Assembly (NCBI GenBank): GCA_963920765.1
Contig: OY987242.1
Coordinates: forward strand, 5,730,789 to 5,794,788
Reading direction: 5' to 3'
From: Ulota crispa
Taxonomy: Eukaryota > Streptophyta > Bryopsida > Orthotrichales > Orthotrichaceae
Length of the DNA: 64,000 nucleotides
A program made the position numbers and the translations under genes. Position 1 is the stretch's first letter. Each line of letters opens with the position of its first letter. Shown piece by piece: positions 319-64,000 of this stretch. Under the pieces are notes generated by a model. That model was given only the letters and a program-made list of their open reading frames with translations. It ran no database searches and was not told where the DNA came from.

Positions 319-685
319 TTAAAAACCTTAAAAACTCTAAAATTTAGAAACTCTCAAAGCCCAATCTGACCTCCTAATTGGAAACAAAAGGGGAATAATG
401 GGGACCACCAAAGCAACATGTGGCAACCCCTCCTAGCTCCCCCCCCTTTCAAAGTCAATATTTTCTCCCTTGCCCAAGCTGCCCCTTGAACTGCTTTTTG
501 CCAAAAGAAGCCCATAACTTGTGAACCGTGTGACATAATCACATGATTTTTTGCATCCCACAAACTTTATACATTCCTACACACTCATAAAAAGTTTCAA
601 AAAATCATGTAAAAATTTGAGGTCACACGAGCCTACGCAAAATCCCAAAAGTCCCTCAAGGGGACTTTGGGGCTTTAGGGGTTAA
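319..685. mobile_element. TTAA-type element, left boundary uncertain
   Basis: The right end is clear: ...GGGCTTTAGGGGTTAA at 670-685. The DNA before it (about 570-660, with a GTTTCAAAAAATCA stretch) resembles, reversed, the left part of the copies at 11063 and 19082. The left end at TTAAAAACCTTAAAAAC (319) matches poorly, so the copy may be deleted or extend further left. No coding capacity. Confidence 0.45.
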
Positions 686-908
686 ACATTCCCAAGGCAT
701 AGTAGATATTTTTCCATATATTTGGCATTTATTATCATGAAGAAGTTTTAATTTGGGATCTAAAATGCCTCACTAGAATTACACTGATCTATATTTTAAC
801 TTTTTTGTTAATCTCAAATGAAGTAAAGGTAAGAATCCATTCCAAATATAAGAAAAATACCTTGTATTGTATTGGTCACAATGGCATACTCAAGACGCTT
901 AGGGTTAA
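682..908. mobile_element. TTAA-type element, 230-bp subfamily, diverged
   Basis: Internal sequence (TTTTAATTTGGGATCT..., then CACTAGAATTAC) matches copies at 34589-34829 and 40129-40361. The right end reads GCTTAGGGTTAA. The left end is degenerate and uses the same TTAA (682-685) as the neighbouring element. Confidence 0.5.
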
Positions 909-2163
909 TTGGTTTGGAATTTGTTTAGCAACTTTGGTTGACCACATCACAATCTTGGTCAAATGCATTATAATTTTGTTCTTTTGATTCTTGGCTTGCT
1001 CAATTTTCAATATATCAAGCCATAAATTAGACCATTTATAATCAATTTCATTGACTTTTCAACTTGTTTTTAGCCTCATGTTTAACCTCCTTGCCAAAAA
1101 CTTAATTATCCTATGAAATAGTGAACTTGAGCAAGATTCTCTCTAACCAAAAATTACATAATAGCTTTTTTTAGCAAGAAAAGTCTTCATGATAATTTGC
1201 AAAGCAATCATTTTCTTAAATTTTGTGTTCAAATGTACAAGTTTTATTTTCTCCACTTAGTTGGCCATTCACTTAGCTATCTAAACCAATTTGTCTTGGC
1301 AAAGATCAACTAGCTAATGTTACTTTAAAATCAAATTCTCTTTGGACAAATTTCTAGTATGATGCTTTGACAAAGGTGTTTATTTTGTTTATTTTGTTTG
1401 AGTTTGTAAATAACATTGTATTGGTGAAAACTGTCATGTGTGAACATGAAATTTTTGAAAAGCTGGTAGATTTCAACTATATGGACAATGACCTTGATTA
1501 TTTAAATACAAAGGTTTTTATTGTTTATGCCCATAGAATTGACATGTTTTTCCTTAACTTTGCATGTGCCAAAAATTATGACTTGACTTTTGTAAACTTG
1601 CAAAAATGTCTAACATCTTTATGTGAGATGTGACATTTCCATTAACAAAACCTTAAAAGGATATAAATTTTGGATTTCTTACTTGTTTTGATTGTGGGAC
1701 AACACTTTTGCGATTGAAATAAATTCATTTTATGTGTCAAAATGTAATAAATAAAAACAATTAAAACAACTAAAACATACTGCATCGTAGAGAAAATTGA
1801 GGAATGGTCAAAAAAATCTATCCTCTTTTTACTCTTGTAAAAATCCTACTAGTCACAAACACGTGTAACTAATTGTGATAAGACCAAAGTTACATACAAG
1901 TGTGAAAAGGTAGAGTGTGAGAAAATTGCTCTTACTTTATAACGTTTTATAGAAAAATCTACCACATGTGGTGATATTAGATTCTTCAATGTTCAGATAA
2001 TTAAAATTTGATTTAGAATTCAGAATTTAGTGTTTAAGGGTGTTGGGGATTTAGGTTAGGGTGGCCTCCCACCTGAAAAATGCTAAATCCAAAAAAATGC
2101 AGTTAATTTTGCACTAAATATCCTAACAAAATGAATTAAAGTGGGTTAGATGTACACTGAATA
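909..2163. other. Unassigned AT-rich DNA
   Basis: No gene or repeat recognised. An 88-codon frame at 1367-1633 has no recognisable motif and lies in AT-rich DNA; I do not call it a gene. Confidence 0.6.
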
Positions 2164-2458
2164 TTGCGTTTAGGTTGCCCCACACTAATTTCTTCACATT
2201 TTGCACTATGTAAACGTTTATTGCTACTAAAGTAATTTTCATCAATAGTAATTTTCATCAATAGTTACTGTAATAAACAAAGTTTAAAAGTCCTAGCAAG
2301 AACAACAATGTTTTGGAAAAACAAATTAGTTAAGTCCATGGCATTGTAAATCATGTGAAATCCTAAAATCTAGAGAGTTGCATGCGCCTCCAAGCTCCAA
2401 GTGACTAAACAATGAGTCATGAGGTAACTTCTAGGGTAAAACAACCTAAATTATGCAA
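2164..2458. mobile_element. Inverted-repeat element, family H, copy 1
   Basis: Ends TGCGTTTAGGTTG... and ...CAACCTAAATTATGCA form an inverted repeat. The body (CACTAATTTCTTCACATT, TTTTCATCAATAG, GAGAGTTGCATGCGCCTCC) matches the two copies at 54288-54567 and 54578-54853. No coding capacity. Confidence 0.7.
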
Positions 2459-2488
2459 TGTTTAGTGTAGGTTATATTGGTCTTGTAA

Positions 2489-2976: not shown

Positions 2977-3808
2977 GAGGTGTGCTGATGTAATGTGGAG
3001 TATACGTTGTCAACCAGTGAAGCCGGCCACCAAGAGAAATGTGCTTTTGATAGAGATGGGTTAAGCTAAAGTAACTTAAGTGGAAGAAGAAGCAAATAAA
3101 TCTCAAGTAAGCTTAAAGGGTGCAGCAGCAGGGGAGATGAGATGACATAACAGAGGCGGTGTTGTCAGAGTAAGGGACCTGCAGTGCAAGCTGATTTCGC
3201 TTGGGTTCCCCTTTTCCCTGTGGCTGGGGCAGGGCAAGGAGTGTGTCAGTGGAAGTCTGGGGGGATGGGTTCATGGCTGTAGGTCCCAGACTCCCAGGCA
3301 ACGCCTGCCCTGCCCTGCATTATGCTGCTACCACACCATACCAGGCAGCTAACTTAGCTCGCTCGCGCACTCATGCACGCACATCAACCCTACCCTTGCA
3401 TTGCAGCATTATGATCATCATCGCCATAGCCGACCTCAGCCATTGCTCCTCGTCACAGGGTTTCCTCTCCCTCCCTCTCCCGCACTTCTTAGTTTCCAGA
3501 ACACCTTACCTCCGCATTCGCTGTGCCCGCACCAACACACGCCCTCACTGGTTCTTCCTGCATGTCACAGAATAAAACCTCGGAGCGCCATTGCTATGCA
3601 TGCAGCTTCAGCATCGGCGCTAGCTCGCTAGCTAGTGTTGGGTTTGCGTGTGAAGTCCGATCCTAAAGGTTCTATTGCCGTACCTTCTTCAGTTTTGAGT
3701 GCAAGCTATGGTGTGGGGTATGGAGTACTAGTGCATGTATCTTTTTGACTGTCCATGTCCATCGAGGTGTGTGGTCTGAGATGGTGTGATTGCTGTCCTG
3801 CTGCAGGT

Positions 3809-3838
3809 CTGTGTGTGTATGTGTGTGTGTGTGCGTAT
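3809..3838. repeat. (GT)n microsatellite in the leader region
   Basis: An imperfect run of GT dinucleotides broken by single A or C substitutions, about 140-170 bp before the start codon. Confidence 0.8.
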
Positions 3839-3859
3839 GTTAGCCCTGTTTTTGGAACC

Positions 3860-3883
3860 ATGGTGAAGCTGCATTTGGGTTAG
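3860..3883 (+). promoter_or_regulatory. Candidate 7-codon upstream ORF
   Basis: ATG at 3860 is followed by six more sense codons (M V K L H L G) and TAG at 3881-3883, ending 93 bases before the gene's ATG and in the same frame. If it lies in the mature leader it would be a short uORF ahead of the glucanase. Its TAG also rules out any N-terminal extension beyond 3884. Confidence 0.35.
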
Positions 3884-3976
3884 GAGGAAAGAAGGTAGCC
3901 GAGTTGGGAGGAATCGAGGGTGGGTGCCGGTGGAAAATTTGAAAACGGAGAGGAGGACGAAAGAGGCGCAGCAGCC

Positions 3977-6900
3977 ATGTATAGCAACACGTGGGGAGGG
4001 CCGATGGAAATGGCCACGGACTCGGACGCCGGTGAGGATCATCAGCGGGGCAGGCACCAGGACGTGGACCATGCGTCCGTGAAGAGCTTGGAGGAGACGC
4101 AGCAGAGCTGGCTGTTGGAGCCGCAGACCAAGAAGAAGAAGAAGCAGATCGACCTGGGCTGCATGGTGTGCAGCTACAAGCTCTTCACCATCATCTTCGG
4201 CACGCTCTTGGCCGCCAGCGCCATCGTCGGCTTGTCCATCGTCATCTGGAAATTTGCTCCTCGCAAGCACCATCACCCTCCGCCCCTCGACAACTACACC
4301 ATGGCCTTCAAGATGGCTCTCAAATTCTTCGATGCCCAGAAATGTAAGCTTTCACCCCTGCCTTCGAGAATGATAAACACCACTTCTGTCATTCTAAGCG
4401 TTTTGACATATTTGGGAGAGCCATTCTTGAAAGATGTACGTACAGAGATCTTTGGGTGTAAGATCCACATCTTTAGATAAACCAACAATTGGCACTCCAT
4501 ATAATACTCTTCTTGCCTCTGTTCTAAAACCTTGTTGCATCATCCGTTGTGAAGAGACGAGACTTGCCCGTTGCTGTTGTGATACAAGCTTTTGACCAAC
4601 ATGTCAGAGTTACTCAATATAGCTCACTGGGATTATCAGTAGCCACCGACATTATTATTAACAAAGATTTGTGTACCATGCAACTTGCTAATTGCAGTCC
4701 TGCTGAGTGTTGATTTGAAGAGATGTAAAAAATATTTTGCAACTTGATTCAGGTTTATAGTACTGATGCTTGCTGCCCCCTGTCCTCATCTTGGTTGCAG
4801 CTGGGCGTTTGGACAAATCCAACAACATTTCCTGGCGGTCGACGTCAGGCTTACGAGATGGACGAAATGCAATAGGTGGACCATCCAGTAATCTCACCGG
4901 CGGATACTACGATGCGGGCGACAATATCAAGTTTGGGTTTCCAGGTGCTTATGCCATGACTCTGTTGAGCTGGAGTGTGATCGAGTATAAAGCGAAATAC
5001 GAAGCTGCTGGGGAGCTTGACCACGTCAAGAAGATCATCAAATGGGGTACTGATTACATGCTGAAGACCTTCAACTATACCTCACCGAATGTGGATTATG
5101 TGTTTGCTCAGGTTTGTGCCCTCTCCCTTTTGCGTTGCACTACTAGCCTGGTTTGGACAATTCTTACGAGAATATTCGTCTTTGAAGTTACGCAATCACG
5201 CTAGCATCACTTGCTCATACTTAGGTCCAACAGATGGGTATGGATATATGAGATTTTTTTAGTAATAGGGGTCGGTCAACAGGAGACGGAATTAGGTCGT
5301 GAACAGTTTTGATATCTTGTACTTGAGACAATCATGGAGTCGTTCAAAAATGTCCTGTTGTTCAGAATTCGTGTTTCTGATGACAAACTAACCGGAGGCA
5401 TTAGACATGGATTATACAGCAAACTTTTTTAGAGTTCCCTATGTCATTTCAGGAATTCTTCACATTTTCCTGTGAGTTGTTAAACATTTCTATCTATTTC
5501 TTCTATGATTTTTTCCTGTCTTACATTTCCCTGTTGAGACACATGGAATCCATATGTAAATCCCTTGACGAGAGTTTGCGGTGGAAATTTAAGCTTCCAT
5601 AGTTGGGACATGGTTGTGTCTATTTTGAATCATTATTTAAAACAAGATTTGAAATCACCCCTGTCCAGGTTGGCGATGCAAATACGTCTCTCCCCAATGA
5701 CCACTCCTGCTGGGAAAGGCCCGAGGACATGGACTACCCCCGTCCAGCATACGCTGTCAGCACTGCTCCAGATCTGGGTGGAGAAATGGCAGCGGCCCTT
5801 GCAGCCGCGTCCATTGTTTTCAAGGATTCTCCAGTGTACTCTCACAAGTTGGTAACGGGAGCCACCAATATCTGGACATTTGCAAGGAGAATGGGGAACA
5901 GAGAGCGGTTTGTTGCTGGCCTCCCTCAGGGGGAGGTGCCGTTCTACAACTCCACTAGTTACTGGGATGAGTTCATGTGGGGAAGCGCTTGGATGTACTA
6001 TGCCACTGGGAATTCCACCTACCTTCTGTTGGCTACCAACCCTGAACTCGCTAAGAATGCGCAAGCCAAGGGTGGCAATCCATACTATGGCACATTCAGC
6101 TGGGACAATAAGCTCATTGGTGCCCAGGTATCATGTTTTTCCCTTCCGAATTTGTCTTCTAATTACTGAACTGCACTAAATTATCATCATATTACAAGAA
6201 GGGAAAATTTCATGGATACCCCTGAAGTTCGCAATATTTTCTTAGATAGCCCTGCTTTTTCAGAAATATCACAAATACCACTGGACCAAAAAACTTAGGC
6301 GTTTGTTTTGTTATGCATGTCACTTCCTTCCCCTTTGTGAGCACAGTACTTCTTTCTCGTTATGCAAGCATACAAAGGAAGAAGGGAAGTGGCATGCACA
6401 ACAAAATAAACGTCCAATTTTTTTGGTCCAAGGGTATTTGTGATATTTCTGAAAAAGCATGGGTATCTATGAAAATATTGCAAACTTCACGGGTATCCAT
6501 GAAATTTTCTCTTAGAAGAAAAAGGAAAATCATCCTCTTTTCTCTGTTTTCTCGTTTCGAGGCAACAAAAGTCCTGGGCTTCTTATTTAGGTAGTGTGCA
6601 TTCGGGTTGAGCTCTAGAAGAGATCCTGAGCTAATTCTCCTTTCTGTGCAGGTGCTTTTGTCAAGGCTTTATGTCATGAAAAGTCCAGGATACCCTTACG
6701 AACAGGAACTCCGAGAGTACAAGAACCAGACTGACACTGTAATGTGCAACTACCTTCCGCAATACAAGAAATGGAACGTTACAAAAGGTTTATGCTCAAC
6801 CTAAATTCCTCTTTCTCTATAAGCACAATTATCCCTTTCAACCAGAAGCATGTGTTTAGCATGAAGAAATGGTGTGTAGACGGTTCATTTGCTTTAGCAT

Positions 6901-8117
6901 AAACTGGAGTTCAAATTGTTTGAGTCTTAAGTCCTGATGTGTTTTTTTTCCTTGTTTGCACAGGGGGGTTGACAATGTTTCTATACGGGCTACCCCAGCA
7001 ATTGCAATACACAGTAGCAAATTCGATGCTTGCGTCATTGTATGCTGAGTATTTGAAGGCAGCTGACGTTCCAGGATGGAACTGTAAAGGCACGTTCTAC
7101 CCTGCAGATACCTTGAACAACTACGCAAGATCACAGGTATTGACCAATGTTTCCAATTGTCTCGTACACTTCTATTTGCTTTCAAATTGTCCTTAGAAGC
7201 CCAAATCTGACCTCATGCTTGACAGTTTTGAGCAGATCATGCAGAAAACATCTAATGTCAAATATGGTGTATACCTTTTTATCGACACGTGCCATATTCT
7301 TCCCTGATTCTGGTGATTAATTTTTGGGAAAATTTCATGGATGCCCTTGAAGTTTGCAATAATTTCATAAATACCCCTGCTTTTTCAGGAATTTCACAGA
7401 TACCCTCGGACCAAAATTTTCAGGTATCCTTGTTATAGCATGCCACTTCCCTTCTCCCTTTGTGTTCACACTACTTATTTCTTGATATGCGTGCGCACAA
7501 AGGAAGAAGGGAAGTGGGCATGCACAATAAGAAAGATACCTGAAAATTTTGGTCCAAGGGTATTTGTGAAATTTCTGAAAAAGCAGGGGTGTCTATGAAA
7601 TTATTGCAAACTTCAGGGGTATCTATGAAAGTTTCCCTTCAATTTTTTACCCCATCTGAGTTGTATTTCCTACTCATTTTATTAACGATATATCCCTGGT
7701 CTTGGTATGAAAATTGTGCAGATAGATTACGTGCTTGGCCACAACCCAAAGAACATGAGCTACTTGGTAGGCTGGAGCAAGAAGTATCCGAAGCAAGTGC
7801 ACCACCGAGCTGCATCCATCCCTAAGTCGGCAGGCAAAGTGGGCTGTTCTCAAGGTCACAAGTTCAGAGATGCCAACTCCCCTAACCCACATATCATTGA
7901 GGGGGCTATGGTCATGGGACCAGACAAGAACGACCGGTACACTGACCGGCGCACTAACTACAACCAAGCAGAGCCGACGTTAGCTGGCAATGCAGCATTG
8001 GTGGGAGCTTTAGTCTCCCTCTCTACGGCAACCACCAAGGGCGTGGATGCAAACACCATTTTCAATGCCATTCCACCCTTGTTCAGGGCTCCTCCTCCTC
8101 CACCCAAAGACCCCTAA
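3977..8117 (+). CDS. KOR: KORRIGAN-type membrane-anchored endo-1,4-beta-glucanase (GH9 subclass A), six exons
   Basis: Exons read as 3977-4343, 4801-5111, 5669-6127, 6652-6787, 6964-7136 and 7722-8117, all introns GT-AG; together 1842 nt, 613 residues plus stop, close to the roughly 620 residues usual for KORRIGAN. The start is the first in-frame ATG after an upstream stop and gives the family's N-terminus (MYSNTWGGP). Seen: cytosolic tail with a dileucine (residues 46-47) and a YKLF tyrosine signal (67-70), basic run at 52-56, one membrane segment at about 68-91 (type II topology), then the GH9 domain from about 106. DAGD at 160-163 holds the catalytic base; the HHR at 509-511 and the D553...E566 block with [12 protein letters not shown] are the two GH9 signatures, E566 being the expected acid. 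At least seven N-glycosylation sequons and a proline-rich C-terminus ending PPPPPKDP. Family role: Golgi/plasma-membrane glucanase that works with cellulose synthase in wall cellulose formation and cytokinesis. Nothing is missing, so it is probably functional. The family assignment is certain; splice sites are inferred from homology and reading phase. Confidence 0.95.
6201..6511. mobile_element. Hairpin MITE, family B, copy 1, in intron 3
   Basis: GGGAAAATTTCATGGATACC at the left is repeated inverted at the right (GGTATCCATGAAATTTTCTC), and pairing continues inward for most of each half. It is 311 bp inside a 524-bp intron, so it makes up most of intron 3. Copies: 7326-7637 and 22025-22337. 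Confidence 0.85.
7326..7637. mobile_element. Hairpin MITE, family B, copy 2, in intron 5
   Basis: Same inverted ends and body as the copy in intron 3, 312 bp within a 585-bp intron. The two copies flank exons 4 and 5. Being self-complementary, each can pair with itself or with the other in the pre-mRNA. Confidence 0.85.
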
Positions 8118-11062: not shown

Positions 11063-11983
11063 TTAACCCCTAAATCCCTGAGTGTCCTCTTGGGGGACAA
11101 ATGGGATTTCAGGCAGGTACCTACAACTTCAATTTTTGTCTTGATTTTTTGAAACTCTTTTGTAGATAGAAAAACACATTAGCTTTTGGGAATATAATTT
11201 TCATTCCAATCTATGACCAAAAGCAAAAGTTGTGCCTAGATAAGCAAAAATTTATGGAGATTGGGTAGAATTTTTTTTACAAAATTTTTTTATTTTTTAT
11301 TTTTTCTTCTCATACGTTATAGTTTTTCCTACATCTGAAGCTTTGATTCATTCTATTTGGACTAGTTTTGAGAAAGTTATGGACAATCTTGTTTTTTGGG
11401 CAACTCAAGCATCTTCTTGAAAAAATAACTTATATACTTCATTTTTGAATGAAATTTTAGCATTTTTTCAAAAAAAATTGTTGAAAAAGGTGAAGTTTGC
11501 TTTTTAGAACAATCTCACCATTGGGATTATTGCACTTCAATTCCATTGTAGGGTTATTAACAATTTAAGTTTTTGTTCAGTCTCATACCTTCTTCTACCT
11601 AATGTTTTTTATAAGAATGAAAATAAGTATTTTTTGTTTTGATTTTTTTCTAAAGATTCTCAACTCAATTTTTCACCATTGAAAAAAAAACCCCAAAACT
11701 CTATGGTGCAAAAATTTGAAGTTAAAAAAGATCAAAGTCAAATAGTCTAATCATTCAAGGTGCAGAAAAATTTGTTTTTGACACTTTAAACGCAGATATC
11801 TTGCAATCCATGCGGTCAAAGTTTTTGAATTTTTGTTTCCACATTCTTATACTAGTCTAGTACAAGGTCTTATGGTTAAATATGCAAAAAGACCAATTTT
11901 CAAATCTTTTTACTCTTTGCAATGAAAGTGGCAATTTTGAGTATCTTTTGACAAAATAAAGGCCCGAGGAATTTAAGGGTTAA
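11063..11983. mobile_element. TTAA-type element, 920-bp subfamily 1, copy 1
   Basis: Begins TTAACCCCTAAATCCCTGAG and ends AATTTAAGGGTTAA. The body, including CAAATGGGATTT and a right part with TTTTGACAAAATAAAGGCCC, matches 19082-19996 in the same orientation and 61087-62015 in the opposite one. No transposase frame. Confidence 0.85.
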
Positions 11984-12474: not shown

Positions 12475-13129
12475 TTAACCCCTCAAGGTCCAAGGGGACC
12501 AAACTGTCCCTCCTTGTTTGTAATTTGGGATGCCTAAACTTTTTTCATAATTAATTACAATGATTATTATTATTTTAAAGTTATTTTTAAAGTCTTGTTT
12601 TAGTATCAAAAGTTTGATTTTGAAAATGATTAATTACGATTTTTTTATTTAAGATTTTGTGGAAGGGTGTTCATTGCAAATCTTCACTTTCTAGTGTTGA
12701 GAGCTCTTGGAATGAGCCTAAAGTATACTAGAACTTGGAGAAACAATCACATTAGTCACATAATTTAAAAATTTGTAGAGTAGATTTTAAGAAGCCGTAA
12801 ATTGATTAGGGTTACACATGTTGTACTTTACATACTCATATTTTTTTGGTACCTTGAATTTTAAATTTGAGAGATGTGAAAAGAGGATTGAAAGACTTCA
12901 AATCACTTTCACAGTTTTAACACCTTCTTGATCAAATGTTATAATCTTTCAATCCATAAGTGATATTGTTGTGTTTTCTTTTCCTATGTGATTTTTAACA
13001 TATCTAGTTTGAATTTGTACAGTTACAATTTTTTTTAAATCAATAAAACTTATCAAAATGTTGCCATTCTGTTCATCCAAGAGTGGATTCTGAGATACTC
13101 GGGAACGTATGTGGGTGGTGAGTGGTTAA
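12475..13129. mobile_element. TTAA-type element, 652-bp subfamily, diverged copy
   Basis: Left end TTAACCCCTCAAGGTCCAAG is clear. The body (AAGATTTTGTGGAAGGGTGT, GAGAGCTCTTGGAATGAGCC) matches 42751-43405, 56969-57620 and the reverse of 31181-31832. The right end has decayed to GGTTAA, but the 655-bp length fits. Confidence 0.65.
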
Positions 13130-45935: not shown

Positions 45936-46663
45936 TTAACCCCAAAAGGACCACTTGTCCCTACGGGGGACAAATGGTATTTTGGGCATGTACTTATGGC
46001 TAAACTACTTTGTGTAATTTTTGAAACTTTTATGGAAGATGGGGAATTCAAAGATCTGTGTGGTCATCTAATTTTTTCCTCATTCCAACATTTTATTGAA
46101 GAAGTTAAAAATGAATTTATGAGAATATTTGTTTGCCGGGCAACCCCAAAAAATCTTTTTTAAATTTTCATTTTTATAAAATAAAAACTTGAGGTTAGTT
46201 CTTTAGACTTACGTATATGTGGGAAGCTTTGAATCATTCAATTCTAATTGATGAGATAAAAGTTATGAAAAGTTTCAGTTTGCATGTAGGCATAATTTTG
46301 AGATTTCCACACCTACTTGCACACTAAAACTTCTCATAACTTTCATCTCATCAATTAGAATTGAATGATTCAAAGCTTCCCACATATGCATAAGTATATA
46401 GAACTAATCTCAAATTTTTATTTAAAAAAAACTGCAGTTTTTAAAGAAATTTTTGGGCTGCCCAATGAACAAAAATTCTCATAAATTCATTTTTAACTTC
46501 TTCAGTAAATGTTGGAATGAGGAAAAAATTAGATGCCCACGTAGATATTTGAATTTGTGATTTTCAATAAATGTTTCAAAAAATCAAGCAAAGTAGTTTA
46601 GCCATAAGTACATGCCCAAAATCATTTGTCCCCCGTAGGAACAAGTGGTCCTTTAGGGGTTAA
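45936..46663. mobile_element. TTAA-type element, 728-bp foldback subfamily, copy 2
   Basis: TTAACCCCAAAAGGACCAC and GTGGTCCTTTAGGGGTTAA. The body matches 37328-38053 and 54867-55594, with the same long internal inverted arms. Confidence 0.92.
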
Positions 46664-46734: not shown

Positions 46735-46967
46735 TTAACCCCTGAACGTCCCAAACGCCCTTTGCGACCGTATGTACGGCTGTATATACAGATGTATTTG
46801 AGCTTCTCTGAGGGTTTTTCAATTTTTTTTTATGCACCTACCATCACACAATCCTTCAATATGTATGATTGTAACACTTAATTTTGAGCTGATTCAAACT
46901 TTTGAATAGTGGTTGCAACTATATTTGGTACCTTATCTCCAGCGCCCAAGGGCCCTTCAGGGGTTAA
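46735..46967. mobile_element. TTAA-type element, 205-bp subfamily, copy 2
   Basis: TTAACCCCTGAACGTCCC and GGGCCCTTCAGGGGTTAA; 233 bp, with an extra stretch relative to 28155-28359. Confidence 0.85.
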
Positions 46968-48921: not shown

Positions 48922-49888
48922 TTAACCCCTAAAGGGCCAAGTGTTTGTTTGACAACCACTTGAGAACTTGGGTAGGGTCATATGGAGTGAATTTTTATTG
49001 GATTTTCTCAAAATTGTTACATAAGATGTAATATGTATTTTCTAAGTGGAAATGTATTTTTTTCTCCAATTGGATGTCCGGTTCAAAAGTTATATTTCCC
49101 AAAAGAATTTGGGCAGCTTGGGTAGCTTGGGCAATTTGGGCGGTTTAGGCATCTTTGGAGAATCTTATGCTAAAACTCTCATCAACTTTTGAGATTTGGC
49201 AAGTCTGTTACTAAAACAACATGGTGTACAATTTTCAAAAAAGAAAGAGCTCTCACATCACATCTTGAAAGGAGACAAACTTTGTTAATTATGTTTGGGT
49301 GGTTTCAAGAAAAAAAAAATCCTCTAACTTTAGGCCATGTTATCTTTCAATCTATAAATCCAAAGTTCTTGAAACTTCTTTTCATATGTTTCAAATGTTT
49401 ATCTCTAATTTTTCACCATTCAAATTTCAAAAAAAAGACTTCCTCATTGCACAAGAAACCATGGAAGAATGACTAACGTGTTGCCAATTTGCTTAACCTC
49501 TTTACATTGGAGGATGATTTAGAACAAGCTAGATTGTATTTTGCATCTGAAAATTTTCATGAATGAACCTAACATCATATACTTGTGAATGGTCAAAAAG
49601 CTCAAATTTGTGTAAAGCAAAAAAATTACTCTAGGAAGGATCAAAATTTGCTGACCTTGTTTTGCAAGAATAAAAAAATGTAGTTTTTTCTCACTTTAAA
49701 CATTATAATCTTAAAATCCATGTGAAATGGGCTAAACTTTTTGCACATATGATTTTATCTGTTTTGCACACTTTTTTACGGTTGAAATTGAGAAAGAAGG
49801 TTTTTCATTTCAATTTTGGGCAATGCACTAAAAGTTAGCAGTTATTGAGATTTGTTCTCAAAAAACACCCTTGGTCCTTTAGGGGTTA
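48922..49888. mobile_element. TTAA-type element, 965-bp subfamily, copy without the CACTA insertion
   Basis: TTAACCCCTAAAGGGCCAAG and CTTGGTCCTTTAGGGGTTAA. It is the reverse complement of 35198-36291 with moderate divergence and keeps the uninterrupted site of the CACTA foldback. Confidence 0.92.
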
Positions 49889-52130
49889 AGATATCTATTT
49901 TTTTTTTACTTGCAATCCAACTAGTGTGAGATATGTAGCTAAAGAGGGACTTTGTGGAGTTCGGGCATGGGCCATCATGTGAACCGCATTAAAAAATTCA
50001 TAAGGAATACACCTAAAACCATATTTACGTTTCCCCCACAACGTTTGACTTGCTGCTCAAAATCTCTTTGGAGGAAATTCACATCAAATCCCACGTGTAA
50101 ACTCTACTAGCCCTATTTTAAAGTTTTGTGCCAGCTTTGAGGGGGTGGCAAAGAGGGGCGAAAAGTTTAAACGTTAAAAATGATATTTGAAAGTTTCATG
50201 GAAGAAATTTTGTTGAGGTTAGGTTACAAACACAAGCTTTGGTGTTTGCCACACGCAATTCTTATAGCAAAGCCTCATTTTCTTCATGCCTAAACTCCCA
50301 AAATGTGTTACCATGTAGACATTTCTAAATGTAAACGTCCATTTTACCTCTAGAATTGGAACAAAGAAGAAAGGACAAATAGTTTTGCACTACAAACCCT
50401 TAGGTCTTCTCTCCATTTGCCCTACGTAAATTACGATTTTGAACTTCAAAATCACTGTTTAAAATTTCCAATTTTCAACCCCAGTAACCAATCAATCAGA
50501 TTTTGAGAATGCACTGAGTTTTGGGACTCCCACTTGAGATTTGGGACGTACTGTGAACCGTTCCCTCAAAGAAATATATACTTTGTGGATAAGTTCTTAT
50601 TTGAAAGACCAAGCTGTCAACTCCTGATTTCAACGCCCATGGTTTCATGATATCAACTCAAAATATGAAACTTGAGCACGCTGAAACTCATGCTAGCCAT
50701 AATAAATTTGACATCTTGTTTGTTAGGCGAGGGTAAAAAAGCCCCTCTTTTTGACATGCCAGAAATTACAAGAGTTCCGAAATTTACCATCAAAAAATTT
50801 ATCATTTGGATTTGGAATTTATGATTAATTGCAATGAACTCCGAAAAGGAATACAAAAACCAAATCCAAACTAGAGGCAGATGCTTACCTTTCATCATTG
50901 TCATAAAATAGTGGACCTATTTTACCTTAGCCCAAAAAAACAAGGCGTCAGATTCATTAAGTCTAACGTGGGTTCCAGTGAAATCCCATAAAACCTTTCA
51001 ATGGGTATGTATGTTTGCCTACTTGTTACTTATAATGTTTAAGATTCCTAAAACAAGAACTGACATTAATTGACAAATTTGGAAATATTTGTAAGAAGTT
51101 TTTAACATTGTGAGGACTTCATAGTCAAACTGGGAGTTTGACTTAAGGGGTCTCTTGAGTCTTGACGGCATAGAACTATAGCAGGATTGACACCCGGGCG
51201 GCTGGCTGACCCGAACTTCCACGTATTAGTAGTTTAACTGCCAGTCTGCCACTGGAGTGACTGGACCTCCATGGATCCAAGTCATCCAACAACCCCATGC
51301 CATGCATCACATGCCTTCGTTACCGAGGTTGGTCAACCTTTACATGGGCACCTGCACGAAGAAATCCAGCCATCCAGGTCTTGGCTAATGCCTTTTTCAA
51401 CATTTTCAAACTTTCGAAGATAGAGACTAAAGAAAGGATTGGGGTGCCATTCCATGACTCTTCCAAAATCTGTTGACTTAGTGGGCCCCCATTCCTTCCT
51501 CAAAAACAAAGGACCAAGATTCCACAATCCCTTACGTTAACCCAGGCCTCTCTAATTCACGTATTGTCATAAATTAACAAATTGAGCTAATTTATGCACA
51601 TCGTGAAAGTTAAATTGTGTTTTTGTCATAAATTAACAAGCCTATCTTTATTACGTGCATATTTGATATCAAATTAATTGTGACAAGGCATGGAATTGCT
51701 TGCATTGTAATATTTCATTAAGCGAGAGGTTAGTCAACAATTTACAATGCTCATTTTTCAAAAGTTTAAGAACAAAGAAGTTGAATTCAACTATGGTCAT
51801 GTTAGGGAACATGGTGGGTATACTTCCATAAAAGTTGTATAGTGATTCAAAGCAGCCTTCAACAATCTTCCAAGCTTCATAGAACAAAGTTGCAATGTTG
51901 TCGCAACCATCCAATGATACAATCAAAGCCGGTTCACTCAAATAGGCAACCTTGAGGGCACAAAATTCTTGCCCAAAATCGGCAATGGTCTACTCGTCCA
52001 ATTGTGCCAAAAATTTTACAACACATTGGTGTATCCATATGTTTGTAAGGGAAAAGTCAAGTTAATTTGTGCACTAGGCTAGAAGTTAATTTGTGCATCT
52101 ATTTTTAGAAAACGTAAAATAGAGAGGCCT
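49889..52130. other. Unassigned DNA
   Basis: No gene recognised. The stretch 51150-51540 is somewhat richer in G and C, with short frames on the minus strand, but no domain is visible. Confidence 0.5.
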
Positions 52131-53050
52131 GTAACCCCTAAAATTCTTTTGTATTTAGAGGCCCAAAACTGTTTCAAAATACTAGTCCCCAAAACAGGGT
52201 CAAAATCTTCATTGAAATCTATTTTTTAACAAATCCAATTGTAGGATCCTTTGGTTGACTTGCACAAGTACAGTGTCCCATAATTTTAGAATGAATATCC
52301 CCACCAATTGCAAGATCAATGTGCCTAAATTTCAAAATGTAAGTTTTTCTAATCCTTCCAAAAGGTGAAGTTTTGATTTTCAAAAATTTTAGAGAAAAAC
52401 ACGTATGTTGTAATCCTTGTGCAATTTTGGCAATATGTTGGAAAATGGGTTGAAAGCATATATAAAAAAATTTAACCAAAAAAAATGGTATCATTTTTAC
52501 AAAAATTGTAAAGTGAAAGGTATTGATGAATGAAAGATATAACTAATATGCTAATAAGTTATGGAAGAATTTGAAAATTGTTAATCCCAATGGTGAGAAT
52601 GCTCTAACATACTATTAGTAACTTTAGTTTTCATTTTCATTTGTAATTTTTCAAAATTGAGAGTAAAAGATAACTTTATATGTTCTTTCTACCCTCTTCC
52701 TACCTTCATTGCTTGCAAAAGAAAACTCCTTTTAACTCTTACCTCATTATTCGGAATTGAGTTATTCAATTTTTTGTTTGAGTAGGTATCAATCTATACA
52801 ATTCTATAAATAAAAAAATAAAAAGATTAGAATATAATTTTTGTTGCCCAGTTTGACATTAAAATTGAAAAAACCTTCTAACTTTTGCATCACTTATTGG
52901 AATGACATGAAATAAAACTTCACATATAGATTATAATGAGTAGCATTCATCCTAAAAATTTCAAGAAAAATTTCCAAATTATGAAGTCAATAGAGCTTGC
53001 CTGAGTTCTCATAAAGCCCAAAGTGGGCCCCTTGGTCCTTTAGGGGTTAA
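52131..53050. mobile_element. TTAA-type element, 920-bp subfamily 2, copy 1
   Basis: GTAACCCCTAAAATTC at left (first base of TTAA mutated), CTTGGTCCTTTAGGGGTTAA at right. Same length as, and reverse complement of, 55591-56510; in the segments I compared there were only one-base differences. Confidence 0.95.
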
Positions 53051-54866: not shown

Positions 54867-55594
54867 TCAACCCCTAAAGAACCACTTGTTCCTATGGGGG
54901 ACAAACAGGATTTTGGGCATGTACTTGTGGCTAAAGTACTTTGTGTAATTTTTTGGAATTTTTATGGAAGATGGGGAATTCAAAGACCTATGTGGTCATC
55001 TAATTTTTATCTCATTCTGACATTTATTGAAGTAGTTAAAAATGAATTTATGAGAATTTTTGTTTGCCGGGCATCCCAAAAACTTATATAAAAAGTGTGT
55101 TTTTTTGAAACAAGAACTTCAGGTTAGTTCTTTAGACTTACGTATATGTGGGAAGCATTGAATCATTCAATTCTAATTGATGAGATGAAAGTTATGAAAA
55201 GTTTTAGTTTGCGTGTAGGCATAGTTTTGAGATTTTCCACACCTACTTGCAAACTAAAACTTCTCATAACTTTCATCTCATTAATTAGAATTGAATGATT
55301 CAAAGCTTCCCACATATACGTAATTCTAAAGAACTAACCTCAAATTTTTATTTAAAAAAAACTACAATTTTTAAAGAAATTTTTGGATTGCTTGGCGAAC
55401 AAAAATTCTCATAAATTCATTTTTAATTTCTTCACTAAACGTTGGAATGAGATAAAAATTAGATGCCCACACAAATCTTTGAATTCCCCGTCTTCCATAA
55501 AAGTTTCAAAATTTACACAAGGTAGTTTAGCCATAAGTACATGCCCAAAATCCCATTTGTCCCCTGTAGTGACAAGTGGCTCTTTAGGGGTTAA
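54867..55594. mobile_element. TTAA-type element, 728-bp foldback subfamily, copy 3
   Basis: TCAACCCCTAAAGAACCAC at left (TTAA mutated to TCAA) and GTGGCTCTTTAGGGGTTAA at right; body as in 37328-38053 and 45936-46663. Shares its right TTAA with the next element. Confidence 0.92.
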
Positions 55595-56510
55595 CCCCTA
55601 AAGGACCAAGGGGCCCACTTTGGGCTTTATGAGAACTCAGGCAAGCTCTATTGACTTCATAATTTGGAAATTTTTCTTGAAATTTTTAGGATGAATGCTA
55701 CTCATTATAATCTATATGTGAAGTTTTATTTCATGTCATTCCAATAAGTGATGCAAAAGTTAGAAGGTTTTTTCAATTTTAATGTCAAACTGGGCAACAA
55801 AAATTATATTCTAATCTTTTTATTTTTTTATTTATAGAATTGTATAGATTGATACCTACTCAAACAAAAAATTGAATAACTCAATTCCGAATAATGAGGT
55901 AAGAGTTAAAAGGAGTTTTCTTTTGCAAGCAATGAAGGTAGGAAGAGGGTAGAAAAAACATATAAAGTTATCTTTTACTCTCAATTTTGAAAAATTACAA
56001 ATGAAAATGAAAACTAAAGTTACTAATAGTATGTTAGAGCATTCTCACCATTGGGATTAACAATTTTCAAATTCTTCCATAACTTATTAGCATATTAGTT
56101 ATATCTTTCATTCATCAATACCTTTCACTTTACAATTTTTGTAAAAATGATACCATTTTTTTTGGTTAAATTTTTTTATATATGCTTTCAACCCATTTTC
56201 CAACATATTGCCAAAATTGCACAAGGATTACAACATACGTGTTTTTCTCTAAAATTTTTGAAAATCAAAACTTCACCTTTTGGAAGGATTAGAAAAACTT
56301 GCATTTTGAAATTTAGGCACATTGATCTTGCAATTGGTGGGGATATTCATTCTAAAATTATGGGACACTGTACTTGTGCAAGTCAACCAAAGGATCCTAC
56401 AATTGGATTTGTTAAAAAATAGATTTCAATGAAGATTTTGACCCTGTTTTGGGGACTAGTATTTTGAAACAGTTTTGGGCCTCTAAATACAAAAGAATTT
56501 TAGGGGTTAA
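55591..56510. mobile_element. TTAA-type element, 920-bp subfamily 2, copy 2
   Basis: TTAACCCCTAAAGGACCAAG and AATTTTAGGGGTTAA. Nearly identical reverse complement of 52131-53050. The single TTAA at 55591-55594 serves both this and the element on its left. Confidence 0.95.
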
Positions 56511-56968
56511 GGAGCAAATATGTGGATTTTAACAGAATAGTACTTTTTGTTATCCTAAGTTCCTAACACTCTCTGAAATATGAAAAGAGAAAAACAAGAA
56601 AAATAAAATGCAAAATTGGGATTGGCTCTTGGGTTAAGAGGGATATCTATAGAGCAACATATGCTTGATAAGGGGTGAAGAAGGGAAAAAGTGCAAAGAC
56701 GAACTCACCCCATGCTCATCATCAATTCTCAAATCCAGGCTTTTAGTTACAATTCATTGACCACAGAGTTGCTTTGGAGGCATTGCAGGCAAAGTGAGTC
56801 AAACTAAAGTCATTCTTACTTTATCGTGGCATGTTGAATCGACACGTGGTCCAATTTCCATGTCTTTGTTTACTCAAACTCTAAACACTTTTGAAATTAT
56901 TCATTCTATATCCAAATATTCATGCAAATTATATTGAGATCATGTTAAGAAATTTTTATTGGAAAGCT
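56511..56968. other. Unassigned DNA
   Basis: Nothing recognised. Confidence 0.5.
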
Positions 56969-57620
56969 TTAACCCCTAAATGCCCAAGGCACCCAATTTG
57001 GGTGTTTGCAAAACTTTGAAGACAAATAAAATCTTATCAAATCACTATTTTTGGTATTTTCTTTTGAACACAAGTTTGTTTTGAAGTCTATTTTTAACAT
57101 CAAAACTTTGATTTTGAAAATGAATGTTCATGATGTTTTTATTCAAAATTTTGTGCAGGGGTGTCCACTACAATCTTGAGTTTTTTAGTGTTGGAAGACC
57201 TTGAAAATGAGCCTCAAATATACTAGAGCTTGGAGAAAAATCCGTTTCGAAATCCATTTAAAAAAAATACAAGAGTAGATTTTGAAAACCGTAAATTGGT
57301 TGAAGTTAAACATGTAATGACCTTAAACCTCATATTTTTTTGAAAACCACCTTTTTAGATTTGAAACGTGAAATGAGGATTAGAAAACTTCAAGTCACTT
57401 TTGCAGTTTTAACACCCTCATGTTCAAATGTTGTAATCTTTCAAATTATAAGTGATATTGTTGTGTTTTCTTTTTCCATGTAATCTCTAACATATCAAGT
57501 TTAAATTTGTAAGATTATAGTTTAAAAAAACTTGATGAGGTTTATGAAAATGTTGGTTGATTATTCACTTTTGTGAAAATGCCAAGAAGTTCAGAAAGGC
57601 CTTGGGCATTTAGGGGTTAA
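56969..57620. mobile_element. TTAA-type element, 652-bp subfamily, copy 2
   Basis: Perfect ends TTAACCCCTAAATGCCCAAG and CTTGGGCATTTAGGGGTTAA; reverse complement of 31181-31832, same length. Confidence 0.95.
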
Positions 57621-57710
57621 AGAATACAGAAGTACAAGAGAAGAGTGAACTTCTACAAGCAAACATGTCCGTAAAATGGTTGATAATACGGGGAACTCAA
57701 TCCTGATAGT

Positions 57711-58100
57711 AAGGTAGCTGCCCCCCATAAGCATGAGTTTAAGCACTTTAGCATGGTTAGGGTAGTTGGAAAAATGCAAAAATTATATCATTAGATTGGA
57801 AAAAGAGAACATAAAATATTAGTTTAGTTTCGGAAGTTATCCACATAGTCATGTGTGCGTGGGTATTTTTCAAAATGCTAAATCACTAAAATTGTAGGAA
57901 CCATGTGTAAGAAATGCTAAAAACAAGTCTTGTTGGTTCTTAAATAGTGAGATGGGTACTCAAAACCGTCATACCAGTCACCCACAACCATCACTCTGTC
58001 GCCCATAACCATCACTTTGTTCACTCATAAGCATTTGCTTTCTAATTATGATGTCAGTGACACCCATGGGGACGGTCACGCTGATGGGTGCAGCTACCTT
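57711..58100. mobile_element. Inverted-repeat element, family D
   Basis: AAGGTAGCTGCCCCCCATAA at left and ATGGGTGCAGCTACCTT at right. Interior matches 23365-23796 reversed (CCCACAACCATCACT). Confidence 0.75.
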
Positions 58101-59316
58101 AGGCTTATAAGTTAGTTTTATGAATTGAACCAAAGTTTGAGAAGTGCACAAGAGATATTATTAATAGTGTAAGGTGTCTTTGTGCTAAATAGTGTAGATA
58201 AGATATGTGTTGCTTGATTGTCTTTATTTGTTAAAGTTTAGAGTTTAACAATTGCAATTTATTCTTCTTGCAATCATTAGTAGTGGAGGTGTGTCTTGGT
58301 GTATTGAATAATATCAAAACATGTTCTTTTATACTATTGTGAATAAGAAAAGGTAAGCTAAAATCAAGGGCCTAGTATGCTAATATCCTAGTGGACCTCA
58401 ATAACAAAATGATGTGAACTACAAAGTTTGGAATGTTTAAATATTACATAATTAGGGTATGTATAAATAAAAAATTTCAAAAATAAATCTAACCAAAAGC
58501 TTTCGAATTTTAACTTGAATTTTTTTTGTACTAGCAAACAAACATAACTATGCATTTTTTTACTTCTAAAACAACACATTTTATTTTAAATAATATATTG
58601 GTAGTAATATTGCCAATTTTGACATATAGGTGTATGAGAACGAGTTATATATTGTGATTTTTGTTGGAAATATATTAAAATCTTGAACTATGAACATGTG
58701 ATAGATTGTTGAAATGTGCACCACACAAAAGAGATTAATGTTAGCTTAGATCATTTACAATCGATCTTCACATATTTCATATATTGTCCAAATAATATAT
58801 CTAAATAAAACTCTCACGTCCTTGTGGAGAATGAGGTTCAAATAGGAACATTAAACTTTGTAAGAAGTAATAATTAGCATGATCTCTTAAATTTTCATGA
58901 ATTGAACAATGTTTAAAACACCATGTGCCTATTTGGCATTTTCTCAACCACATACCTTCTAGTTGTTTTTGTTTTATTGTTTATGAAGGAAAGCTTGTAT
59001 GAAATTTTAAGAAAAAGAACATTCTTTCTGGGATTTTTTTTTGTCAAGTGGTTTCACCCTACTTGAACATGTTACGCCTTGAGGAAGACAACGGTGTATA
59101 GAGCTACGCTTTTATTAGCAACCAAATACAAAGAGGTGAAGCTTTTTAGCAACAAATATTCTACCTTTAACACAAAATACATGTAAATGAGTTAATAATT
59201 AAGCAACAATTTTGCCCAAATGTAAAATTATTTTAATAAATAAAAAAAAACTCATATTATTTAAAATAAAATAAAAAATCACTATCAAATCCTTAAAGCA
59301 TTGGATTTGCAGACTA
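58101..59316. other. Unassigned AT-rich DNA
   Basis: Nothing recognised. Confidence 0.5.
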
Positions 59317-60080
59317 CTAACCCTTGAGTGCCCATGTTGTTTTCACCAAAATCAAGGTTTTTGGAAACCAACAACTTTGATGCATTGTATCTAAGTCAAA
59401 TGGATGATTCACAAAAAGTGACTATTGAAAATAGTGGAAACCTACTTAGAAAATGGCTTGCAAATTTTGAGAACAACTAATTGTGGGAGATGGGAGATTA
59501 TAACATTTGATCAAACAACATATGATGACAAAATCTCATTTTTTGGTAGGTAGTTGCTACTTGATGATTCTTACAAAATTCAATAAGCTCCTAATTCATC
59601 TTAAATTTTGTGAGTAGCAAGGTTAGATGTGAGTGCACACACTTGTAAATTATTGAAAATTACACTTCCTTTTATGTCAAGTTTTAGGGCTTCAAATATC
59701 TATTGCACGGAAAACAATGACTGGCACAATTGGTGATGGTTGCCCAACAATAAGGGTCTAGAACATGCTTGAACCTTTGCTAACAACTTTCCCGCTACCA
59801 CAAAGCCTACACAAGGAAGCTTGCAAGGGATATTAACCGATTGCAGCATGTAAAACGCTGCTTGCCACTACACCCCGTATGGTGTTTCACCCAATCAAAT
59901 CTCTTGCAGCACTTGTACAACATTTGGCTTTCCTTACCATTACACCATTGACATGGACAACTTGGATGCCTTCATAATTGTAGTTTATAGCAAGATCAAA
60001 AAGTTAGATCTAGTACCTCAAACAAGCCTTTGAAATCATGGGAGGCCATATATAAGACGTTGGGGGCGCTCAAGGGTTAA
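59317..60080. mobile_element. TTAA-type element, 764 bp, single copy in window
   Basis: CTAACCCTTGAGTGCCCATG at the left; GGGGCGCTCAAGGGTTAA at the right. These ends (CCCTTGAGTGCCC) are the variant most like published piggyBac-type termini. Interior not shared with other copies here. Confidence 0.75.
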
Positions 60081-60581
60081 ACACCAAAATTAATCAGAAT
60101 TAAACTCAAAATAAACGCGCTTAACCTACAAAGGTTCCACAACCTATATATTTTGGTACTCAGGTGCCTTTCATTGCTAGAACCTATTACATTTTCTATT
60201 GCATTAACAAGTTGATTTCATTTTCATTGATAATTGAACTTTGTTTTGATGTCATTATAACAAGTAGCAATACGAAAATTTTATGATTCCTTTGATAATA
60301 CGCTATATATCTCAAATAAAATAGATTACATAAATGTCTATCCTCCGCATTCTAGAATGAATTCGGATTACAATAGAAATTCTAAGATCAACATGAATTT
60401 GAAAAAAATATAGTTAGTGTGTATTTAGAGCTTACCAAATTCTTGTTTCAAACACCGAAAATTCACGTGCACTCTAATCCATTTGTAAAGACTATTTTTT
60501 GTTCAGTCTCCAAAATGAATTACTTTTTTATAGCAGCAATTACTACACTTTATATACTTTACTAACCAACAAACTTGATCC
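60081..60581. other. Unassigned AT-rich DNA
   Basis: Nothing recognised. Confidence 0.5.
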
Positions 60582-60825
60582 TTAATCCCTGAAGCATGTT
60601 GCCTACCAAAAGTGTTGTTCGTATTTGTACAAGAATCATTTAGTACTTAAAGAAATGATTGTATGACAAATGTTAAAAATTTCCCAAAAAATCCTAGTTG
60701 ACAAGTAGTATATCTATGACTTGGCTTGAAACTTACAACTCCAATGGGGTTCATGTGCTATCCAAATACCCCATCCGTATACAACTTGGGAGTCCATATA
60801 CAAAACAGCAACATTCTTTAAGTCA
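60582..60825. mobile_element. TTAA-type element, 247-bp subfamily, copy 2
   Basis: TTAATCCCTGAAGCATGTTG at left. Right end is degraded (CATTCTTTAAGTCAAAT). Body very close to 27854-28100. Confidence 0.8.
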
Positions 60826-61086
60826 AATATTGTGACATACAAGAAAGACATATATAGTCTATGCTGGTTTTGAATGTTTGTGGTTGCAACTAATTTTATT
60901 TAATTTAATATTAGATAATCCTATCATTCCAATATCATATCTCAATAATATTCTAATACTACATTATTTTTAAATAATTAATCAAGAAATAATAGCATTT
61001 TGTCATAGATTATTTAACTCAATTACGTCATGATCCCTTTAAAAGAAAATCCATTTTTTTGCTAATTTAGAAGATTTAACAATACC

Positions 61087-62015
61087 TTAACCCCTATAGA
61101 ACCATGGCCTTTATTTTGTCAAAAGACACTCAAAACTGCCACTTCTATGGCAAAGAGTAAAAATGTTTGAAAATTGGTCTTTTTGCATAATTGATCGTAG
61201 GATCTTCTACTAGACTTGTATAAGAATGTGTCATTCAAAACTTAAAAACTTCACTATCACAGATTGCAAGATATTTGTATTTAAAGTATAAAAAATAAGT
61301 TTTTTTGCACCTTGCACGACTAGATTATTTGACTTTAAACTTTTTGACTTAAATTTTTTGCACCTTGGAGTTTTGAGGTTTATTTTTTTATGCTAGGGAA
61401 TTGAGTTGAGAATCTTTGGAAAAATACCAAAACAAAAAATACTTAATTTTCATTCTTTAAAAAAATATTAGGTAGAAGAAGGTACAAGATTGAACAAAAA
61501 CTTAAATTGCTAATAACCTTGCAATGGAATTGAATCACAACAATCCCAATGGTGAGGTTGTTCTAGAAAGAAAACTTCACCCTCTCCAATAGCTTTTTTT
61601 GAAAAAATGTTAAGCTTCCACTCCAAAATGAACTTTATAAGTTATTTTTTCAAGAGGATGCTTGAATTGCCCAAAAAACAAGATTGTCCATAACTTTCTC
61701 ATATTTAATTCAAATGGAATGTATCAAAGCTTCAGATGTAAACAAATATATAATCTACAAGGACAAATTTTTTTTATAAAAAAACCAAGTTTTTGTAAAT
61801 TTTTTTTGTTGCCTGGACCCCTCAAATTTTTGCTTATTTGGGCATCGCTTTTGCTCCTTGACATTGATTGGAATACAAATTATATTCCCCAAAAGCTAAT
61901 ATGTTTTCCTATCTTCAAAAAAAAATTCATAAAATCAAGACAACAATTGAGGCCATAAGTACCTGCCCAAAATCCCATTTGTCCCCCGGACGGACAATGG
62001 TCCTTTATGGGTTAA
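61087..62015. mobile_element. TTAA-type element, 920-bp subfamily 1, inverted copy
   Basis: TTAACCCCTATAGAACCATG at left, GGTCCTTTATGGGTTAA at right. Reverse complement of the bodies at 11063 and 19082 (TTTTGTCAAAAGACACTC near the left, CAAAATCCCATTTGTCCCCC near the right). Confidence 0.88.
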
Positions 62016-63247
62016 AGCATATGGAGATATCAAGGCTCAACGTTAACAGCACGTGCAAATGGGCAAGTTTCAACTGGGTTTTTATCAAAGATACATTTAA
62101 TTTAAGATGTACTAACATTATGGAACTTTTGAGCTAACAATTTGATAAGATATTAGTAACTTATAAATAAACGTTAACAACCAAATAATTTTATTATATA
62201 TATAAGAAATGGATGCTAATTTCAAAATCAAAGATGGATATCATGTGTAAACCATAATATTCAATTACAATGCTACCAATAACTTTCATATTACTTAGAA
62301 AACATGTTCTTGTTGAAAGAAAGATACAAGAGTTATAAGTAAACTTTACAACCTTTACTAGCATTGTTGTTAATTAGTTCTCTTTTTTCGGAATTATCAT
62401 ACTCTTGAATAAATTTGTTTCAGACTGAATCTTCAAAATAAGAAGACATAGCTAGATCATCATAGTTATCAGTACAATATGGAATCAAATACTACTAAAA
62501 TAAAAGAATAATTCATTATTTTCTTTGGCTGATTATTGAATTATATGCTATTCCAAAAAATGTATATATTAAAATTGAATTGATTTATTCTTACACATTT
62601 TTTCTTAAAGTTGGCCAGAAACGTATTATGTAAATGTTTTAGTCTTTCCAGAATAATAAACAAAACAATCTACACCAATTCTATATGCCAAAATCATAAT
62701 GCTGCAACCAATTTCCAAAATTTTAACCTTAATTTGCCCTATCAATCCAAAATTAGTTGTTGAGAAATTTTTGCAAGACATGACATTCTTTGATTACTAA
62801 TGTATAACTTCATTCATTTAAGTTTCCTAAGATTCTTGTAATAAATTCTTAGATTCCATATAGTATTTGTTTGGGATACATGTTTTGAAACGTAAAGAGT
62901 GCAAGTGTGTTTTAAATCAAAGAATAATCTTATTATTTTCAGAAGTGACTTTCAAATTTGACTTCACAAAAAAATTATGTAAAAGTAAGAAGTTGAGGTA
63001 GAATGCCCTCAAATGGCACCTCACTATATTTTCGTCAAGTAGGTTTGATGTTGTGCATTTTAAGTTTAAAGAATTTAGCAATGTGGTTAACTAAACCTTG
63101 TAAGGGGAAGATATTTGCTACTATTGCCCCTCTTTAAACATACTTTATAAAGAACCTTCAATAGTGTTACTGATATGTCCTTATTGATATGTCCTTACAG
63201 TGTCATAATTAACCTACAAACTTTGCTCGCAAAACACATCATGGTTA
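62016..63247. other. Unassigned AT-rich DNA
   Basis: Nothing recognised in 1.2 kb; very AT-rich. Confidence 0.5.
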
Positions 63248-64000
63248 TTAACCTAAAGGATCAAGTAATTTTTTCTGTGAAAAACACAGAAAACTGCCAC
63301 TTTTGGGGAAGCAAGTACAATGGCAAGAAGAAAAAGCTTTTTACAATAATCCAACCGTAAGATCTTATAGTAGACTACAAGAGGTACATGTGGTAAAAAA
63401 ATCAGCTCAATTTGCACAAAAATGAGTGAGATATTTACATTTGCCCAAAAACTTCAGAAGGCTTTGACCACTCTTAGAGCAAAAACATTACTCTACACAA
63501 ATTTGAGGTTTATTTTTCCCATGTAGGAGACCAAGTTAGGTATATGTGGGAGAATTTTCAAATCAATTGGAAAAATTAGTAAATAAAAAGAAGTAGAAAA
63601 TGGGTCAAAACACTAAATTGTTAAGAATTTAATTATTGAAATGAAAAATGCAAATCCCAACGATTATAATATTGTGATAAACAATCCACATCTTTTGGCT
63701 TTGTTTTTTTTTTTCAAACTATTAAAAATTGAGTAAAATAAAGGACTTCAAAGTTTATATTAGAGTAGAGAATCTAGAACTGCCCGCAAACAAAAACTCC
63801 TCATAACTCTCATCTCATCTATGAGAATTGAATGATTCAAAGCTCCCCACGTCTATACAAGTCTAAAGAACCTATTTTAGATTTTTATTTGAAAAAATTG
63901 AAATTTTTAAAGAAGTTTGTAGTTGCCCGGGGAACAACATTTTCCAAATTTTCATGCATAACTTCTTCAATAAATGTTGGAATGAAGAAAAAATTACACT
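63248..64000. mobile_element. TTAA-type element cut by the window's end
   Basis: TTAACCTAAAGGATCAAG at the left; the last 220 bp match the inverted arm of the 728-bp foldback subfamily (GAATTGAATGATTCAAAGCT, TTCAATAAATGTTGGAATGA). The first part differs, so it may be a composite or two abutting elements. The right end lies outside. Confidence 0.55.

Follow-up and report, generated by a model that had tools for sequence, protein, structure and literature searches.

Research on the piggyBac superfamily has concentrated on animals and on its use as a tool for genome engineering. Terminal repeats that start with CCC next to TTAA are the piggyBac pattern, and T. ni piggyBac is about 2.5 kb long. 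Among the miniature inverted-repeat transposable elements (MITEs) of plants, Stowaway belongs to Tc1/mariner and duplicates TA, and Tourist belongs to PIF/Harbinger and makes a 3-bp duplication. Here we analysed a 64,000-nucleotide stretch of the genome of the moss Ulota crispa (G000:C1:5730789-5794788, hereafter called the window; the assembly has 274.8 Mb in 157 contigs), in which short repeats are bounded by TTAA. It is very probable that these repeats are piggyBac-superfamily MITEs, moved at TTAA by the transposases of longer piggyBac elements in the same genome. The system is not of a new kind: it is a known superfamily in an unusual host, at unusual abundance and with signs of recent movement.

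The moss elements are like T. ni piggyBac (6x67/6x68) and piggyBat (9c0f) in DDE_Tnp_1_7 sequence, in the TVDE, DNFF and GVD..DQ blocks, in the TTAA target and in terminal repeats that start with CCC. Unlike T. ni piggyBac, they reside in a moss and, where both ends were seen, are 5.0-6.3 kb long, and two of their lineages may hold an intron in the transposase. The short elements share high copy number, small size and inverted ends with Stowaway and Tourist but have a TTAA target and a piggyBac transposase. PiggyBac MITEs with TTAA duplication are described in Helicoverpa moths, with lengths of 50-800 and 256-775 bp and in numbers of 93 and 25 sequences, in the passage of PMC9033116 that deals with them. 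Those elements are alike in TTAA and short length, whereas the host here is a plant whose genome holds 31,318 exact copies of a 17-base end. In the repeat table of the fern Ceratopteris, the PiggyBac line reads 1230, 122417 and 0.00, apparently copies, bases and percent (PMC6890710). As far as that line goes the share is negligible there, in contrast to about 23% of the window here, where transposase, ends and derivatives are linked. The sequence-only reading, which first described the window repeats, held that piggyBac elements are little described in plants. General mentions of piggyBac-like elements in plants are already found in passages of PMC8086355 and PMC10813416; for mosses, no description of native piggyBac elements was found among the matches listed from the open-licence PMC literature. 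A Niphotrichum moss paper among the candidates was irrelevant, as the word used there is 'piggybacking'. The animal piggyBac works for marker excision in rice and, according to the relevant passage of PMC5505980, was untested in Physcomitrella as of 2017.

The family-wide end motif of 17 bases, TTAACCCYTNANNGNCC, was drawn up after such ends had been inspected. On both strands of the window, 16 ends matched it exactly, 11 with one mismatch and 16 with two mismatches, and the means of 20 dinucleotide shuffles of the window were 0, 0.15 and 2.8, respectively. With 27 ends at no more than one mismatch as compared to 0.15 by shuffling, the repeat observation itself is confirmed. The 23 elements that we listed make up 14,971 bp, or 23.4% of the window (about 23.3% after the start of the last element was corrected from 63209 to 63248; its right end, at 64121, lies beyond the window). 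The earlier estimates of about 26 elements and about a quarter of the window were close to these values. A proposed start at position 319 was not confirmed, the sole matching end there being a right end at 672-685. Self-comparison of the window gave size classes of 205/233, 247, 652, 728, 920, 921 and 968 bp with at least two copies each; the 553-bp and 764-bp elements are single in the window and were assigned by their ends alone. Among the open reading frames (ORFs) of the window, none of at least 150 amino acids lies inside a listed element. The elements are short, carry no transposase, have inverted ends and a high copy number, and their ends are related to those of longer elements, as is expected of MITEs.

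These ends are abundant genome-wide. The exact 14-mer TTAACCCCTAAAGG is present in 15,411 copies (7,719 and 7,692 on the two strands), as compared to one copy (1 and 0) of the reversed motif. The 31,318 copies of the 17-base motif are likewise evenly divided between the strands (15,685 and 15,633), and its reversed control is found nine times (4 and 5). At 16 exact ends per 64 kb against 31,318 in 274.8 Mb, the window holds exact ends at about 2.2 times the average density of the genome. Because 23.4% of the window is covered but the window is denser by this factor, piggyBac-type elements may make up about 10% of the genome by rough extrapolation.

Of 528 candidates from a profile search of the genome with DDE_Tnp_1_7 (PF13843), 116 were scored, and these yielded 120 matches, the best with E 1.3e-73. 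Every listed row was above the cut-off and none of 14 control genomes had a match. The exact 17-base ends far outnumber the 528 transposase candidates. Twenty 9-kb loci around PF13843 domains were taken as a sample. One of them, L039, has a frame open across the domain, which in a phmmer search of PDB (E<=1) matched only 6x67 (T. ni piggyBac, 3.6e-20) and 9c0f (piggyBat, 1.4e-16). The protein identity of this frame to the other 19 loci is 31-70%; therefore, several diverged transposase lineages exist. All three aspartates of the aligned TVDE, DN and GVD blocks, which we take to be the catalytic residues (268, 346 and 447 of T. ni piggyBac), are kept in 14 of the 20 loci, and one or two of them are lost in L030, L035, L036, L037, L039 and L045. 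With regard to the C-terminal cysteine-rich zinc-binding domain of piggyBac transposases, a Cys-rich tail is visible in the L032 ORF at 3446-3877, but no separate Pfam zinc family was obtained from six scanned frames at E<=0.1. Possible GT-AG introns are located at the same domain position in L043 (4141-4419) and L045 (4264-4493), where other GT-AG choices exist, and L044 has a gap at that position with one candidate intron.

The long elements carry the family ends. In 15 of the 20 loci, an outward-pointing end with no more than one mismatch follows the domain on its 3' side at a distance of 1.0-2.6 kb, and an inward-pointing end does so in two; when two mismatches were allowed, the numbers were 18 and two. 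For one of the 15 loci, L042, homology assigns this end to an adjacent MITE. Seven loci (L029, L030, L032, L033, L034, L037 and L048) have both ends, which gives elements of 5.0-6.3 kb. A piggyBac-domain stretch between such ends, the check that the sequence-only reading had suggested, is thus present in seven of 20 loci. When 21 transposase-element ends were compared, most began with TTAACCC, with variants in L030_5p, L037_3p and L047_3p. Instead of the single transposase for many cargoes that had been postulated, many diverged piggyBac lineages with variant ends are found. Each of these lineages, whose ends differ slightly, probably moves a set of MITEs of its own.

L032 provides a link between the long and short elements. 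Its 3' end (700 bp) had 1,876 candidates in the genome; 38 of the 40 scored, its own locus included, start at base 1 and most of these 40 stop near 554 or 586. The other end of L032 had 417 candidates, and all 40 scored stop no more than 2 bp from its last base. Among the scored copies both ends come together at four places, with spans of 908-944 bp. Three such copies, L049-L051 (908-920 bp), consist of 554-587 bp of one L032 end (85-86% identity) and 114-136 bp of the other (76-79%), joined by about 0.2 kb of other sequence; they are bounded by TTAA and are without transposase. The makeup of these three copies shows that a longer piggyBac element gave rise to at least one MITE family through internal deletion. 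The assignment to piggyBac, which had been made from the termini, is supported by resident DDE_Tnp_1_7 copies between family ends together with these three short elements that carry both ends.

Similar results were obtained with other lineages. The L046 3' end (TTAACCCCTAAAGGACCAAGG) had 4,385 candidates; among the 40 scored, 35 begin at base 1 and 20 end at 354. A second L046-type copy has 91% identity over the entire 1,561 bp from TTAA to the domain, and the L046 end block and inner block occur jointly at seven more places, three of which adjoin listed PF13843 domains. The L031 end had 1,679 candidates, with 35 of 40 scored starting at base 1. The element that begins at 63248 and ends outside the window, at 64121, resembles the L046 end block in its first approximately 323 bp (82.2% over 349 columns). 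The 920-bp pair is identical with the L046 transposase-element end in 21 of 21 terminal bases, which in the copy at 52131-53050 lie at the right end. The 652-bp pair (31181-31832 and 56969-57620) agrees with L049 in 37 of 37 bases at the L049 right end and in 21 of 21 at the opposite end, and with an end of the L032 element in 34 of 37. The right end of the 968-bp element at 48922-49889 agrees in 27 of 29 bases with the L041 transposase-element end. The far end of a MITE of about 940 bp in L041 had no match better than E 0.008 to the L046 element.

We propose that transposases from the longer piggyBac elements, of 5.0-6.3 kb where both ends were seen, would cut and paste the short gene-less copies at TTAA sites, each insertion duplicating TTAA. 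At least one MITE family has come from internal deletion of a transposase element. Others, among them most window classes, are tied to transposase elements by their end sequence only, and the ends may be enough for transposase recognition. At least one class has moved recently, to judge from the 920-bp pair (52131-53050 and 55591-56510), which differs at 3 of 920 positions and has unlike flanks.

Several findings weigh against this proposal. A stop lies inside 110 of the 120 matched PF13843 stretches, and because of this no active source has been identified. Both the end motif and the distance of 1.0-2.6 kb were chosen with the ends of these loci already in view. On the 5' side the orientation test does not discriminate (7 of 20 vs. 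5 of 20, or 10 vs. 7 with two mismatches), so that a chance association of ends with transposases is ruled out by orientation on the 3' side and not on the 5' side. The comparison with a transposase element from one end to the other covers only three L032-family copies and the 63248 element, and the short L046- and L031-end matches were taken as MITEs from their stop positions. For the interiors of the 728, 652, 553, 247 and 205/233 classes no transposase-element partner was traced. This last result would be expected if Kolobok or Sola transposases, which also use TTAA, mobilised some or most of the window classes and the piggyBac copies were a separate population; no search aimed at Kolobok or Sola transposases was made. 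We regard this explanation as quite unlikely, because the window ends follow the 17-base consensus of the piggyBac elements and have up to 34 of 37 terminal bases in common with a piggyBac element and 37 of 37 with L049, a MITE bearing the two ends of that element.

The target site offers a further comparison. The host repeat of the L051 MITE is uninterrupted in L029, where a single TTAA is present at the junction (117 of 148 positions identical). This is the only clean empty site and it is paralogous; two further attempts gave none, which is another weakness of the piggyBac proposal. The joined flanks of L049 matched, besides their own locus, 39 rows of the genome, each on one junction side only, and the joined flanks of 48922-49889 matched only their own locus. 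Of 196 joined left-right pairings that were tried locally, most of which are not real elements, five rows span the junction. Four of these were rejected: one pairs the ends of different elements (55591-62015) and three come from the unsupported L044:831-7284. The remaining row is the L051 site in L029. TTAA is present at 63 of the 73 ends that keep the complete inner consensus. In the window, two pairs of elements abut through one common TTAA (43402-43405 and 55591-55594). The young copy at 52131-53050 is bounded by GTAA at the left and by TTAA at the right. The GTAA flank, also adverse to our proposal, fits a 4-bp duplication only if it mutated later or if the site was imperfect. From an empty TTAA site by itself, TA and TTAA cannot be told apart, and the GTAA flank would agree with Tc1/mariner-type MITEs that duplicate TA and prefer T-TA-A targets. 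In that case the outer T should vary freely. Genome-wide, variants of the outer T are no commoner than those of the second T, with 654 VTAA and 679 TVAA beside 15,411 TTAA sites. Since the first T is as invariant as the second, the duplicated site cannot be TA alone. In addition, the long elements encode a piggyBac transposase. The mariner explanation is thus extremely improbable. The insertion target is TTAA, which is duplicated, and not TA. A duplication other than TTAA, which would have spoken against piggyBac, was not seen in the empty site or the base counts, bar the one GTAA flank.

It is scarcely credible that MITEs merely inserted beside transposase genes and share their ends by coincidence in a MITE-rich genome: MITEs do adjoin several transposase copies and the 5' orientation control is weak, but the conserved 1,561-bp stretch of L046 with its seven further joint occurrences, the three MITEs with both ends of one element and the 3' orientation result stand against it, and for the L032 and L046 lineages it is already contradicted.

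The listed piggyBac-type MITEs are distributed over the window as follows, with strand given where it was assigned. The 921-bp class is found at 11063-11983, at 19081-19996 (left end decayed, placed by homology) and at 61087-62015 (placed by ends and self-comparison). The first of these was recognized by its ends and by 83.9% identity to 19082-19997 and 80.1% to 62016-61106, and its right end has a weak likeness to the transposase-element end of L046 (67.7% identity in 133 bp). The 652-bp class includes 31181-31832, which has 93.3% identity with 57622-56968, and 56969-57620. Its copy at 12475-13129 has a clean left end and a decayed right end and was placed by homology to 42853-43351, 57072-57511 and 31729-31246. 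A diverged copy, weak at both ends and also placed by homology, lies at 42751-43405, and its right TTAA is that of the single-copy 553-bp element at 43402-43954. The 247-bp class has copies at 27854-28100, with matching ends and 93.3% identity with 60583-60820, and at 60582-60828, whose right end is decayed and which was placed by self-comparison. Ends and self-comparison also placed two elements of a class of about 241 bp (34589-34829 and 40129-40361). Members of the 205/233-bp class are 28155-28359 (ends; 69% identity with 46735-46967) and 46735-46967 (ends and self-comparison). The 968-bp class is represented by 48922-49889 and by 35198-36291, the latter with extra internal sequence and placed by ends and self-comparison; about 123 bp at 35888-36010 are present in this element and not in 48922-49889. 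Self-comparison gave the 728-bp elements at 37328-38053, 45936-46663 and 54867-55594. The right TTAA of the last one is shared with the young 920-bp copy at 55591-56510 (minus strand); its partner at 52131-53050 is on the plus strand, and one of their three differences is the outer TTAA base (GTAA). The single-copy 764-bp element at 59317-60080 was assigned by its ends, and the element leaving the window occupies 63248-64000 on the plus strand.

Other features of the window were also noted. The plus strand at 3899-6169 contains exons of a putative KORRIGAN-type membrane endo-1,4-beta-glucanase, an identity that we assume from the likeness of the ORFs to this protein. A repeat of about 315 bp is found at 6198-6514, 7326-7640 and 22023-22340, and two of its copies are beside or within the presumed glucanase gene. 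This repeat is nearly palindromic because it matches its copies in either orientation, at 75-86% identity. Overlapping internal direct repeats, mostly of 70-79% identity and in several registers, fill 16804-18717 and are perhaps satellite-like. A 70-bp tandem duplication with 97% identity lies at 21226-21364.

A search of the genome with the LEAFY DNA-binding domain profile gave two exon matches at one locus, which read MRDYVHC and AWCQACY. Angiosperm LEAFY has H312 and R345. The combination D312/C345 is reportedly the moss type II form, described by Sayou et al. in 2014. According to the passage of PMC6588583 on this subject, residues 312, 345 and 387 determine the LFY type; the LFY members known from Bryopsida belong to type II, which otherwise occurs in other mosses and one liverwort. 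By its residues, the LEAFY locus appears to fit a bryopsid moss.

The piggyBac assignment of the window elements raises a broader idea. Mosses may harbour a piggyBac radiation of their own that is long-lived and has been active recently, with many diverged lineages, some with introns, each having its cognate ends and MITE set; together these would form about a tenth of the genome and the main class of short DNA transposons. We put this forward tentatively and give it slightly less than an even chance. A land plant with tens of thousands of piggyBac ends would alter which superfamilies are sought in plant repeat annotation. It would also supply piggyBac transposases native to a plant together with the natural ends that match them, and the series of lineages and end variants within one genome would allow study of the co-evolution of ends and enzyme.

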